A stretch of 64,000 nucleotides of DNA, from assembly GCF_004784465.1 (NCBI RefSeq), contig NZ_SRRU01000005.1, positions 372,001-436,000 of the forward strand, in the 5' to 3' direction. The notes beneath the pieces were generated by a model. It searched no databases. It saw only the letters and a list, made by a program, of their open reading frames with translations, and was not told the DNA's origin. The stretch comes from Streptomyces griseoluteus (GTDB taxonomy: Bacteria; Actinomycetota; Actinomycetes; Streptomycetales; Streptomycetaceae). Below, in pieces: positions 2,397-33,119 of the stretch. Both the position numbers and the translations under genes were made by a program. Positions within the stretch are counted from its first letter, which is position 1; each line of letters begins with the position of its first letter.

Positions 2397-3502
2397 GCCG
2401 ATGCTCCCAGGATGCCGCCGAGGGTCTTGTCGGCCGTGCCCGTCGACGCGGGCGCCGACGGGATGTCGGGGAGCGAGTCGAGGAGTTTCTTCAGGCCGGC
2501 GCAGTTGTCGTGGTCCTCGCCGGTCGTCTTCAGGATCGAGCAGAGGAGGGAGGGCGGATCCTGCGGGGTCTGCGCGTTGTCGCGGGTGTCGAGGGTGCCG
2601 GCGGCGGGGTTGTAGGCGTTCTGCAGGTTCGACAGGCCCGTGGGGGCGACGGTCAACAGCTCCTCCAGAGCTTTCCGTTGGGTGACGAGGACCTTGGTGA
2701 CCTTGGCCAGGCCCCGCACGTCCGAGGTCAGCGCCTTCTTGTTGCCTTTCACGAAGCCGGACACGTCGCCGAGCGCGGCGGCCAGGTACTTCAGCGCGGC
2801 CGCGAGGTCCTTGCGCTCCCCGGCGAGTTGCCCGGCCACGTCGGCGAGGTCGGTGTTGAACGACCGCACACGGGCGTCGTCCGCCGCCAGCGCGGCCGTG
2901 AACACCTGGAGGTTCCGCACGGTCCCGAACAGGTCGCCGCGCCCGTCGGACAGCGTGGTGACCGCCTGGGACAGGTCCTCCACGGTCTGGTTGAGGTCCT
3001 TGCCCTGCCCGCGGAGGTTGTCCGCGCTCACCCCGAGCAGCCGGGACAGCGAGCCCTTCTTGTTGGCGCCGTTCGAGCCGAGCGCGTCGGCGGTGGTGTG
3101 CAGGCTGTCGAAGATCCGGTCCAGTTCGACGGGGACGGCCGCCCGGGACTGGGGGATGACGTCTCCGTCCCGCAGCACCGCGCCCTTGCGGTACACCGGC
3201 AGCAGCTGCACGTAACGGTCGCTGACGACCGAGGAGTTCACGATGGCGGCCTGTGCGCCGGCCGGCACCTTGCGGCCCCGGTCGTACTCCAGCTCGACCC
3301 GCACCCGGCCGCCCTCCGGCGTGATCTTCCTGACCTCGCCGATGCGGACGCCGAGGACGCGGACGTCGGAGCCGGGGTAGATGCCGACGGTGCGCGGGAA
3401 GTACGCCGTGACGCGGACGGGGCCGGGGCCCGGCCACAGGACGGCGGCCAGGCCGACGAGGAGCGCGAGCGCGGTGAACAGGGCCAGGAGTCTGCGGGTC
3501 AT
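2393..3502 (-). CDS. mceD: MCE family protein, MceD position
   Basis: 369 aa. One N-terminal membrane helix (about residues 5-25) is followed by an MCE domain in which IYPGSDVRVLGVRIGEV and the later SDRYVQLLP match the family core. The rest is a predicted helical barrel region. It overlaps both neighbours by four bases (ATGA), so it is translationally coupled in the operon. By analogy with mycobacterial Mce complexes it is one of six different subunits that share a lipid channel across the envelope. The cargo cannot be read from the sequence. Confidence 0.92.
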   Translation of the reverse strand: MTRRLLALFTALALLVGLAAVLWPGPGPVRVTAYFPRTVGIYPGSDVRVLGVRIGEVRKITPEGGRVRVELEYDRGRKVPAGAQAAIVNSSVVSDRYVQLLPVYRKGAVLRDGDVIPQSRAAVPVELDRIFDSLHTTADALGSNGANKKGSLSRLLGVSADNLRGQGKDLNQTVEDLSQAVTTLSDGRGDLFGTVRNLQVFTAALAADDARVRSFNTDLADVAGQLAGERKDLAAALKYLAAALGDVSGFVKGNKKALTSDVRGLAKVTKVLVTQRKALEELLTVAPTGLSNLQNAYNPAAGTLDTRDNAQTPQDPPSLLCSILKTTGEDHDNCAGLKKLLDSLPDIPSAPASTGTADKTLGGILGASA

Positions 3503-30589: not shown

Positions 30590-32242
30590 TCACCCGGCAC
30601 GCCGATGCTGTTTGGGACGAGATCGTTTCTCAACGTACATCCGCTCGTCGGCGGACTTCAGCACTTCGTCGGCCGTCATCCCGCAGTGCGCCCAGCCGAT
30701 GCCGAAGCTGGCGCCCACCCGGACCGCCCGGCCCTCGGCCCGGATCGGCTGGATGATCTCGTTGCGCAGCCGCACCGCGAGGTCGGCGGCGTCGGCCTGG
30801 CCGAGACCGTCGGCGAGGATCACGAACTCGTCGCCGCCGAGCCGGGCCACGGTGTCGCCGTCCCGCAGTCCCGCGCTGAGCCGGCGGGCCACCTCGATGA
30901 GGACCGCGTCGCCCGCGTTGTGCCCGAAGCGGTCGTTGATCGACTTGAAGCCGTCCAGGTCGCAGAAGAGGACCGCGAGCCCCTTGGTGCCGTCGTCGGG
31001 GCCCTGCTGGGGGGCGACGGCGTGCACATGGTGGTCGAACGTGTCGTACGCCTCCGGGCCCGGCGGGAAGTCGAAGCCGTGGGCGTCGCCGGAGCCGGCC
31101 GGGTGGCCGTAGGCGGCGTCCAGGGAGTCCAGGGCGTCGGGGTGGGCCGGGCGGCGGCACAGCCGGGCGGCGAGCCGGGAGCGCAGCTCGGCGGAGTTGG
31201 GCAGCCCGGTCAGGGAGTCGTGGGAGGCGCGGTGGGCGAGCTGGAGCTCACGGCGCTTGCGCTCCTCTATGTCCTCGACGTGGGTCAGCAGGAAGCGCGG
31301 GCCGTCGGCCGCGTCCGCGACCACGGAGTTGCGCAGCGACACCCATACATAGCTGCCGTCGCGCCGGGCGAGCCGCAGCTCGGCCCGTCCGCCCTCGGCG
31401 GAGGTGCGCATCAGGGTGCCGATGTCCTCGGGGTGGACGAGGTCGGAGAAGGAGTAGCGGCGCATCGCGGAGGCGGGCCGGCCGAGCAGGCGGCACAGGG
31501 CGTCGTTGGTGCGCAGGATGCGGCCGTGCTGGTCGCCGCCCATCTCGGCGATGGCCATGCCCGAGGGGGCGTATTCGAACGCCTGACGGAAGGATTCCTC
31601 ACTGGCCCGCAGGGCCTGCTGGTCGCGTTCCAGACGGACCAGGGCGCGCTGCATGTTGGCGCGGAGGTGGGCGTTGCTGATCGCGATGGCGGCCTGGAAG
31701 GCGTACATCTGCAGGGCCTCGCGGCCCCAGGCGCCGGGGCGCCGGCCGGTGAGGGGGCGGTCGACGGATATGACGCCCAGCAGTCCGCCGCGAGCGCTCC
31801 CCTGGGCGCCGGGGGCGTACATCGGGGCGAAGAGGCGGTCGCCGGGGTGCCACTCGTCGGGAAAGCGGGGCGAGGGGCCCTCGGTGTACCACTGGGGGAC
31901 GTCGTCGTCGTCCAGGACCCAGCCCTCGGTGTGGGGTATGAACACCAGGTCGCCCCAGAGTTCGCCCATGCCCAGGCGGCGGTCCCAGGACTCGCGGGAG
32001 CCGGTGCGGCCGGTGATGAGGGCCTCGGCGGCGGAGTTGCCGGACACGGCGGCGACGACCAGGTCTCCGTCGGGGCGCACAAGGTTGACGCAGGCCATCT
32101 CGTAGCCGAGGGCGGAGACCGCGCCGTCCGCGACGATCTGAAGGGTGTCGGCCTGGCTGCGCGCGGTGTTCATCTCGGCCATGACCTGGTGAAGCTGACG
32201 CAGTGACGTCAGAGGGACGTACGGCTCCTGATCGGTCTCCAT
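30590..32242 (-). CDS. cdgB: Diguanylate cyclase with GAF-PAS-GGDEF architecture, CdgB-like
   Basis: 550 aa, with GGGAGGG before the ATG at 32242. A GAF-like domain (about residues 15-175) is followed by a PAS/PAC domain (about 200-320) and a GGDEF domain with intact LGGDEF and an RDGD inhibitory site five residues before it. It should make cyclic di-GMP from two GTP. About 65 extra residues (His/Pro-rich) are inserted between DSLTGLPNSAEL and the FCDLDGFKSIND strand. The architecture, with a BldD-like box upstream, matches CdgB of Streptomyces, which controls development. No EAL domain is present. Confidence 0.9.
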   Translation of the reverse strand: METDQEPYVPLTSLRQLHQVMAEMNTARSQADTLQIVADGAVSALGYEMACVNLVRPDGDLVVAAVSGNSAAEALITGRTGSRESWDRRLGMGELWGDLVFIPHTEGWVLDDDDVPQWYTEGPSPRFPDEWHPGDRLFAPMYAPGAQGSARGGLLGVISVDRPLTGRRPGAWGREALQMYAFQAAIAISNAHLRANMQRALVRLERDQQALRASEESFRQAFEYAPSGMAIAEMGGDQHGRILRTNDALCRLLGRPASAMRRYSFSDLVHPEDIGTLMRTSAEGGRAELRLARRDGSYVWVSLRNSVVADAADGPRFLLTHVEDIEERKRRELQLAHRASHDSLTGLPNSAELRSRLAARLCRRPAHPDALDSLDAAYGHPAGSGDAHGFDFPPGPEAYDTFDHHVHAVAPQQGPDDGTKGLAVLFCDLDGFKSINDRFGHNAGDAVLIEVARRLSAGLRDGDTVARLGGDEFVILADGLGQADAADLAVRLRNEIIQPIRAEGRAVRVGASFGIGWAHCGMTADEVLKSADERMYVEKRSRPKQHRRAG

Positions 32243-32304
32243 GCTCGCCCTCCCCCTGCTGTCCACAGGCTTTCCGCCACTGAATCACAGCGCGCTGCTC
32301 ACTC

Positions 32305-32319
32305 GGTACACAGGGTCAA
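32305..32319. promoter_or_regulatory. BldD box upstream of cdgB
   Basis: The 15-bp stretch with core ACACAGGGTCA matches 9 of the 10 fixed positions of the BldD consensus (nTnACnCWGnGTnAn). It lies 63 bp upstream of the cdgB start. BldD, whose activity depends on c-di-GMP, is known to target cdgB. Confidence 0.65.
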
Positions 32320-32334
32320 CAATTCCGCACTCCT

Positions 32335-32350
32335 TGTGACTCAAGTCACA
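32335..32350. promoter_or_regulatory. Crp-type palindrome
   Basis: TGTGACTCAAGTCACA has perfect TGTGA/TCACA arms with six-base spacing and also fits the Streptomyces Crp motif GTG-N6-GNCAC. It lies 93 bp upstream of cdgB. Confidence 0.6.
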
Positions 32351-32546
32351 GAAGAAGTTGAACAATTGAGTGCAGTTTCCGCACTTTCCCGTTGCGTTCT
32401 CCGATCGCAAAGGCTGCGAAGTTGCGCATATGCCGCTGGCCGGTCCGGGCGGTCCTTCCGCCACAGGTCCGGTCCTTTGGTCCTAGGTCCGGGTTACGCC
32501 GGAGGCCCGATGCGGCGGACGCGGGCGGCCGATTAGCGTTTGCGGT

Positions 32547-33119
32547 GTGCTGAACCCTCCCTCCCCCACCGCCGCGGCCGCTTCTGTGCATGCTGAAGGG
32601 GTGAGCGACGACGAGTTCCGGGCGGCGATGTCCCGGCTGGCCGCGGGCGTGGTCCTGGTGACCGCGCAGGAACCGCCGCTGGACCCCGACGACCCGTACG
32701 CGCCGGGCGGCGAGGACGCGGGCATGACGGCCACGGCCTTCATGTCGGTCTCGCTGGACCCGCCGCTGGTGCTGGTCAGTCTGCGCACCGGCTCCCGGAT
32801 GGACGACCTGCTGGACGAGCAGCCGCTCTGGGCGGTGTCCGTCCTCGCCGAGCACCAGCGGCAGATCGCGGGGCGATTCGCCATGAAGGGCCGGGTCAGC
32901 GACCGCCTCCTCTTCGCCGACCTCGCCTGCGACCGCGGCGAGGCCACGGGCGCCCCCCTGATCCCCGACGCCCTGGCCACCCTGGAGTGCCGGACCGAGC
33001 AGCGCGTCGAGGCCGGCGACCACACCCTCGTCATCGGCCGCGTCCTGACGGCCCGCGTCCCGAGCGCGGAGGGCGGCCCCCTGCTGTACTACCGGGGGCG
33101 GTACCGGCACTTGGGCTGA
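32547..33119 (+). CDS. Flavin reductase-like domain protein
   Basis: 190 aa. The flavin reductase split-barrel core is visible (FRAAMSRLAAGVVLVTA, MTATAFMSVSLDPPLVLVSL, and FAMKGRVSDRLLF). Such proteins bind FMN and reduce flavin with NAD(P)H, often for a partner monooxygenase. TAGCGT sits exactly seven bases before the GTG at 32547, so a leaderless start is preferred; a later GTG at 32601 is possible. No monooxygenase is adjacent. Confidence 0.85.
   Translation: MLNPPSPTAAAASVHAEGVSDDEFRAAMSRLAAGVVLVTAQEPPLDPDDPYAPGGEDAGMTATAFMSVSLDPPLVLVSLRTGSRMDDLLDEQPLWAVSVLAEHQRQIAGRFAMKGRVSDRLLFADLACDRGEATGAPLIPDALATLECRTEQRVEAGDHTLVIGRVLTARVPSAEGGPLLYYRGRYRHLG

Follow-up and report, generated by a model that had tools for sequence, protein, structure and literature searches.

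Genes and candidate sites at the cdgB locus

The window, by which we mean the whole 64-kb stretch of DNA that was analyzed, carries on its minus strand the diguanylate cyclase gene cdgB, whose product contains GGDEF and PAS domains (Pfam) and is 85 to 90% identical across 80 Streptomyces loci (the best 80 of 578 relatives). The gap between cdgB and a divergent flavin-reductase-like gene holds a Crp-type palindrome, a BldD-box-like element, and a third element, called el3 here. The features are listed below.

30590..32242, minus strand: cdgB, encoding a diguanylate cyclase of 550 aa; the ATG is at 32242
32279..32290, minus strand: el3, CTGTGATTCAGT, an almost invariant element 48 nt from the cdgB ATG
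32306..32318, no strand assigned: BldD-box-like 13-mer GTACACAGGGTCA (TGACCCTGTGTAC in cdgB orientation), with five of the six defined letters of TNAC(N)5GTNA
32335..32350, no strand assigned: Crp-type palindrome TGTGACTCAAGTCACA (TGTGACTTGAGTCACA in cdgB orientation), exact, 93 bp from the cdgB ATG at 32242
32547..33119, plus strand: divergent flavin-reductase-like gene (PF01613, Pfam), the other possible target

In cdgB orientation the upstream order is therefore TGTGACTTGAGTCACA (32335-32350), then TGACCCTGTGTAC (32306-32318), and then el3 (32279-32290).

CdgB is among the best-conserved GGDEF/EAL proteins of Streptomyces, and together with the phosphodiesterase RmdB it is the most abundant of them in S. 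venezuelae (PMC6205966). Several regulators have already been placed at the gene. Its regulation by BldD and the idea of a feedback have been published (PMC4151990, PMC7026642), and binding of BldD to the S. ghanaensis cdgB promoter was demonstrated by EMSA (PMC7026642); thus, the feedback loop through BldD that an earlier note on this DNA had drawn at cdgB is right but already in print (PMC4151990, PMC7026642). Additionally, cdgB is an MtrA target by ChIP-seq in two species (PMC5845573), and WhiA ChIP signal nearby goes with moderate repression of cdgB by WhiA, which also represses crp (PMC3781837). The WhiA motif GACAC was absent from the cdgB upstream gap of the window (32243-32546); in several other Streptomyces it lies directly after el3.

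The earlier note had located TGTGACTCAAGTCACA 93 bp upstream of the cdgB start, and it lies exactly there, at 32335-32350 with the minus-strand ATG at 32242. Its arms are 7-bp perfect inverted repeats around a 2-bp center, and this is the only place in the window matched at three or fewer mismatches (shuffle mean, 0.10). A Crp site in its E. coli/actinobacterial form has TGTGA-N6-TCACA arms and a free middle, and in the window site these arms are perfect. Perfect copies of TGTGAN6TCACA number five in the 6.84-Mb genome and zero in the reversed control, so that at genome density one is expected by chance in about 2e-4 of 304-bp gaps. By our reading of the other four, one precedes a nuoB-like gene and one a cydA-like gene; of the remaining two (L182 2001-2016 and L184 2001-2016, C16 and C21), one separates a sigma-factor gene from an Asp23-like gene and the other lies in front of a phospholipase-D-like gene. 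The sites upstream of the nuo- and cydA-like genes (L181 2001-2016 and L183 2001-2016) match known Rex operators, while those in L182 and L184 are candidate Crp sites. Since Rex-type sites account for two of the genome's five perfect copies, the TGTGAN6TCACA frame by itself does not separate Crp from Rex.

The strong consensus of Streptomyces Crp, for which 393 target genes have been reported, is GTG(N)6GNCAC (PMC10033298), and the window palindrome matches it on both strands. Across the 64 kb of the window this pattern has 21 exact strand-hits, and a single match therefore means little. One such match, GTGTGATCTGTCAC, is found in the crp promoter (L185, minus strand, crp start at 3086), where autoregulation is possible.

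Conservation of the palindrome beside cdgB

Upstream regions of cdgB were anchored on el3 (at most one mismatch) and not on the palindrome. A search for the BldD core plus el3, with the palindrome left out of the pattern, had matches in 59 of 121 family genomes, representing 8 of 17 genera; beyond the window's genus, 20 of the 34 matches were taken and 14 left out, and the start of cdgB is present beside all 20. The gene was also taken from 24 of the 62 non-matching family genomes and from one genome of another family, and lower-identity cdgB matches were added (61 of the window's genus and one from G199). Duplicates were counted once (L208/L209 are the same as L171/L172, and L179 is the same as L230), 30 loci (L081 to L110) were left out of all counts, and L272 was not used. 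Viral contigs, searched as a further source, contained no relative.

Of 183 cdgB upstream regions, 180 could be anchored on el3, and these come from 15 genera and comprise 179 distinct segments. All 180 have the palindrome slot, with perfect arms in 172 and one arm mismatch in 8. When the 20 regions that had been chosen by their BldD block and el3 are set aside, 152 perfect and 8 one-mismatch slots make up the 160 regions that are left, from 10 genera. The slot has the offset -59 in 163 regions and -60 in 17, the window being among the latter. Control windows of equal size, shifted 60 to 220 bp upstream, had 3 to 7 mismatches at best, with the exceptions of one perfect match and one match with two mismatches. 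The three regions without an anchor are L225 (g14), L230 (f2), and L231 (g19), and whole-locus scans of them found neither the palindrome nor el3.

Other ways of placing the regions gave similar counts. Within Streptomyces, the arms were perfect in 78 of 79 loci and carried a single mismatch in the other one (79 of the best 80 of 578 relatives being long enough). When the BldD-side block, and not the palindrome, served as the anchor, 140 of 142 regions were placed (L022 and L130 were too short), and the slot was present in all of them, as the exact 16-mer in 126. A strict joint pattern of the palindrome with TTGTTGACCCTGTG matched 157 of 199 genomes of the window's genus, and its reversed control matched none; the two joint-pattern-negative genomes examined out of 42 (G056 and G127) have a perfect palindrome and miss the strict letters on the BldD side. 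The earlier note had proposed to look for the palindrome in other species and would have given up its reading if close relatives lacked it. Such a lack was not seen, since the slot is in every one of the anchored regions, its arms kept and its center drifting.

The BldD-box-like element, el3, and their spacing

The published BldD consensus is TNAC(N)5GTNA, with a spacing of 5 (PMC4151990). The best 13-mer in the gap, GTACACAGGGTCA, has five of its six defined letters, and the match of nine letters out of ten claimed in the earlier note, which did not give its 10-letter consensus, could not be reproduced. At one mismatch or fewer, the gap contains four strand-hits, that is, two sites read on both strands, the second at 32327-32339, compared with 0.6 expected from the density in the window (about 0.3 when counted as sites). 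A single box occurs by chance in about one gap in four, and the box is thus weak evidence when taken alone; it is conservation that makes it credible. In all 180 regions TNAC(N5)GT stands 28 bp before el3, with nine forms of the N5 stretch, 20 of the 180 having been selected for this block. The last A of the full consensus is missing in all 180 rows, the window included, and for that reason we name the element BldD-box-like.

The third element is identical in 179 of the 180 anchored regions and has one mismatch in the other, within an anchoring that allowed one mismatch and left 3 of 183 regions without el3. Its 13-base form occurs perfectly once in the genome. As a recurring genome motif el3 was rejected, with 22 matches at two or fewer mismatches against 21 in the reversed control, and it fitted none of the motifs with which it was compared. 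A leader peptide at GTGATTCAG was judged unlikely by eye, since TGA or TAG follows directly in some loci.

The palindrome and the BldD box are separated by 15 bp in 163 of the 180 regions and by 16 bp in 17, in 115 different spacer sequences, which places their centers 29.5 or 30.5 bp apart, or by arithmetic about three helical turns. A spacer fixed in length and drifting in sequence suggests bound proteins that need the same relative face of the helix. The window's own spacer is one base longer than in most of its genus. The distance from el3 to the ATG varies from 48 to 207 (160 rows ending at the ATG or at its estimated place), and the window has the shortest one seen (48). A scan for a sigma70-type promoter found none, and neither did its shuffles, so that the scan has little power; TAnnnT lies between el3 and the ATG in two of the inspected regions (L037 and L120), and this assigns the palindrome to no class of Crp site.

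Which regulator the palindrome fits

The 180 anchored regions contain 23 distinct palindrome 16-mers, and 22 of these keep GTGA/TCAC intact. Among 15 genus representatives, changes in the arms were confined to positions 1 and 3, whereas five of the six middle positions vary. Position 6 is C in 12 of the distinct 16-mers, G in 6, T in 4, and A in 1, and position 11 is G in 16, C in 5, A in 2, and T in none. Of the 23, 18 fit the strong consensus GTG(N)6GNCAC on at least one strand. This drift of the center between kept arms is the pattern of a Crp site, and of Crp, Rex, MtrA, and a BldD site with 4-bp spacing, Crp fits best. However, position 8 is T in 180 of 180 regions and 130 of 141 rows of the window's genus share the middle CTTGAG; this is more conservation than Crp specificity alone demands and counts against the Crp reading. 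Predicted Crp sites in Streptomyces are also not always confirmed, as tagged S. tsukubaensis Crp did not shift the cya promoter, which was said to hold a Crp site (PMC10033298). The claim of the earlier note that the palindrome is a Crp site is therefore upheld as a reading of sequence, conservation, and arm-versus-center drift, and its binding part stands as a prediction.

The main rival is the redox sensor Rex, which would control cdgB or the flavin reductase from a Rex operator in place of Crp. Rex operators of Streptomyces share the 16-bp TGTGA/TCACA frame (PMC5355995), and two of the perfect sites in this genome lie at nuo and cyd, which are published Rex targets, the nuo site having been footprinted (PMC5355995); the divergent gene is, moreover, a flavin reductase. 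What makes Rex the main rival is that it shifted an echA7 probe whose listed site, TCGTGACGACAGTCACAA, has GTGAC/GTCAC arms (PMC5355995). The Rex consensus TTGTGAANNNNTTCACAA nevertheless prefers A6 and T11 (PMC5355995), and the cdgB slot is mostly C6/G11: both Rex letters occur together in 0 of the 23 distinct 16-mers and either one in a single 16-mer, T11 never. The S. avermitilis Rex table (PMC5355995) does not include cdgB, a weak point since it lists only selected ones of 36 motifs. Overall, we regard a Rex operator as unlikely. Still further from the data is the idea that the arms are half-sites of BldD (TNAC N4 GTNA) or of MtrA (GTnAC repeats). TGACTTGAGTCA does fit TNAC(N4)GTNA exactly, and both proteins bind this promoter, MtrA by ChIP-seq in two species (PMC5845573), but the C6 and G11 that either arrangement needs are present together in just 9 of the 23 distinct 16-mers. 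For BldD, the published spacing is 5 (PMC4151990) and all 180 regions retain an N5 box distinct from the palindrome. For MtrA, whose consensus is the direct repeat GTnAcC-n5-GTnAcn (PMC13189361), the simplified pattern GTNAC(N6)GTNAC has no match in the gap at one mismatch or fewer, a result that is not final since the published consensus is loose. Half-sites of either kind are thus a very improbable account of the arms.

The palindrome could also be a Crp site that mainly serves the divergent flavin-reductase gene, its conservation beside cdgB being incidental. The reductase is divergent beside cdgB in 136 of 143 regions (the other seven are six short flanks and f2), and one operator can serve both genes. 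Against this, both of the other conserved elements are located toward cdgB. In the two g6 genomes examined (L228 and L229), the 1494 bp that precede cdgB did not yield the reductase, whereas the palindrome (with one arm mismatch), TNAC(N5)GT, and el3 all stay with cdgB; conversely, g14 has the reductase and lacks the palindrome and el3. These two cases make cdgB the likelier target on comparative grounds, and we give the reductase a chance slightly below that of Rex. An RNA origin of the block, with a hairpin leader in place of DNA operators, was rejected as hardly credible. A stem of 6 bp is possible within the palindrome, and the element does precede cdgB, but the fold z-score was -0.63 and 52 of 200 shuffles folded as well, the one Rfam match (E 0.34) was far below the gathering score, and positions 6 and 11, compared by reading, do not change together across the 16-mers.

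Crp in the window's genome and its relatives

The genome contains eight cNMP-binding matches, one of which, a protein of 224 aa, has a Crp-type helix-turn-helix, and the recognition-helix segment of this protein, ASRETVNKALADFA, is identical to that of the solved M. tuberculosis CRP. The protein at L114 is another of these matches and has a different recognition helix; by a reading of the frames, the remainder have no such helix. Crp was found in 19 of 20 genomes searched (E cutoff of 1e-40), with ASRETVNKALADFA in all 19. In the genome without a hit at that cutoff, G309 (g16), the perfect TGTGAN6TCACA slot at cdgB is kept, and the crp locus (L270) aligns to Crp only as overlapping pieces in two frames; this may be a fault of the assembly, or else the genome has the site and no working Crp. 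The f2, g14, and g19 genomes have Crp and a cdgB locus without the palindrome and el3. Both observations count against the Crp reading, G309 being its main counter-example.

DISCUSSION

We read the palindrome as a candidate Crp operator within the cdgB control region, where a BldD box and el3 are its neighbors, and we hold this reading, with the working proposed for it, to be probable. A conserved Crp-type site at this place suggests cAMP control of c-di-GMP production. In the proposed working, cAMP-Crp would raise cdgB transcription in early vegetative growth, and the c-di-GMP made by CdgB would arm BldD, so that sporulation is held back. At high c-di-GMP, BldD would repress cdgB itself, and the branch would later be shut by WhiA through its repression of crp and of cdgB. 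Binding of Crp to cdgB and its dependence on cAMP are what we infer from the DNA, and the positive sign of Crp is a guess that leans only slightly toward activation over repression.

Much of this has precedents. At the same promoter, the published regulation of cdgB by BldD has the same feedback logic (PMC7026642, PMC4151990, PMC3781837), and the palindrome and el3 come in addition here, the cited portions of those papers having no Crp site at cdgB. The window site resembles the Streptomyces Crp regulon in that it matches the strong consensus on both strands (PMC10033298), and it shares with Rex operators the frame but not the letters at positions 6 and 11 (PMC5355995). The literature searched on Streptomyces Crp and on cAMP with diguanylate cyclases, a scope that does not take in the targets reportedly determined by Crp ChIP-chip in Streptomyces (Gao 2012), yielded no paper that places Crp at cdgB. 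Judging by its title, a paper on gcsA is said to treat crosstalk of c-di-GMP and cAMP on gcsA transcription. In Pseudomonas putida, CRP binds the gcsA promoter and cAMP-CRP represses gcsA, and in Vibrio cholerae cAMP-CRP regulates cdgA negatively (PMC11139211). The earlier note knew of no described link between cAMP and c-di-GMP synthesis; this agrees with the Streptomyces literature searched and does not hold more widely, since diguanylate cyclase genes elsewhere are known to be under cAMP-CRP control (PMC11139211). As with gcsA and cdgA, cAMP-CRP at a diguanylate cyclase gene would couple two second messengers, here as a prediction from sequence; unlike those cases of negative control in Gammaproteobacteria, the organism is a sporulating actinomycete, the effector is BldD, and the Crp site is a candidate. 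Therefore, with BldD, WhiA, and MtrA known at cdgB and cAMP-CRP known at diguanylate cyclase genes, what would be new, if true, is Crp at cdgB, in another phylum and with another effector.

A broader and more tentative view, which we think possible but doubtful as a whole, is that the cdgB control region is an ancient and rigid device of the Streptomycetaceae, in which cAMP through Crp and c-di-GMP through BldD would be read about three turns apart, with an uncharacterized third factor or an unusual core promoter at el3, and in which the c-di-GMP threshold at which vegetative growth is left would be set by cAMP. The almost invariant el3 offers a defined target for further regulatory input. In S. 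coelicolor, cAMP is tied to aerial growth and antibiotics (PMC6988585, PMC7674942), and the cited portions of those papers contain no route to the BldD switch. Since c-di-GMP decides when BldD releases sporulation (PMC4151990), a conserved Crp-type site at cdgB would, if the reading is true, provide a direct and easily tested route from cAMP to that switch.
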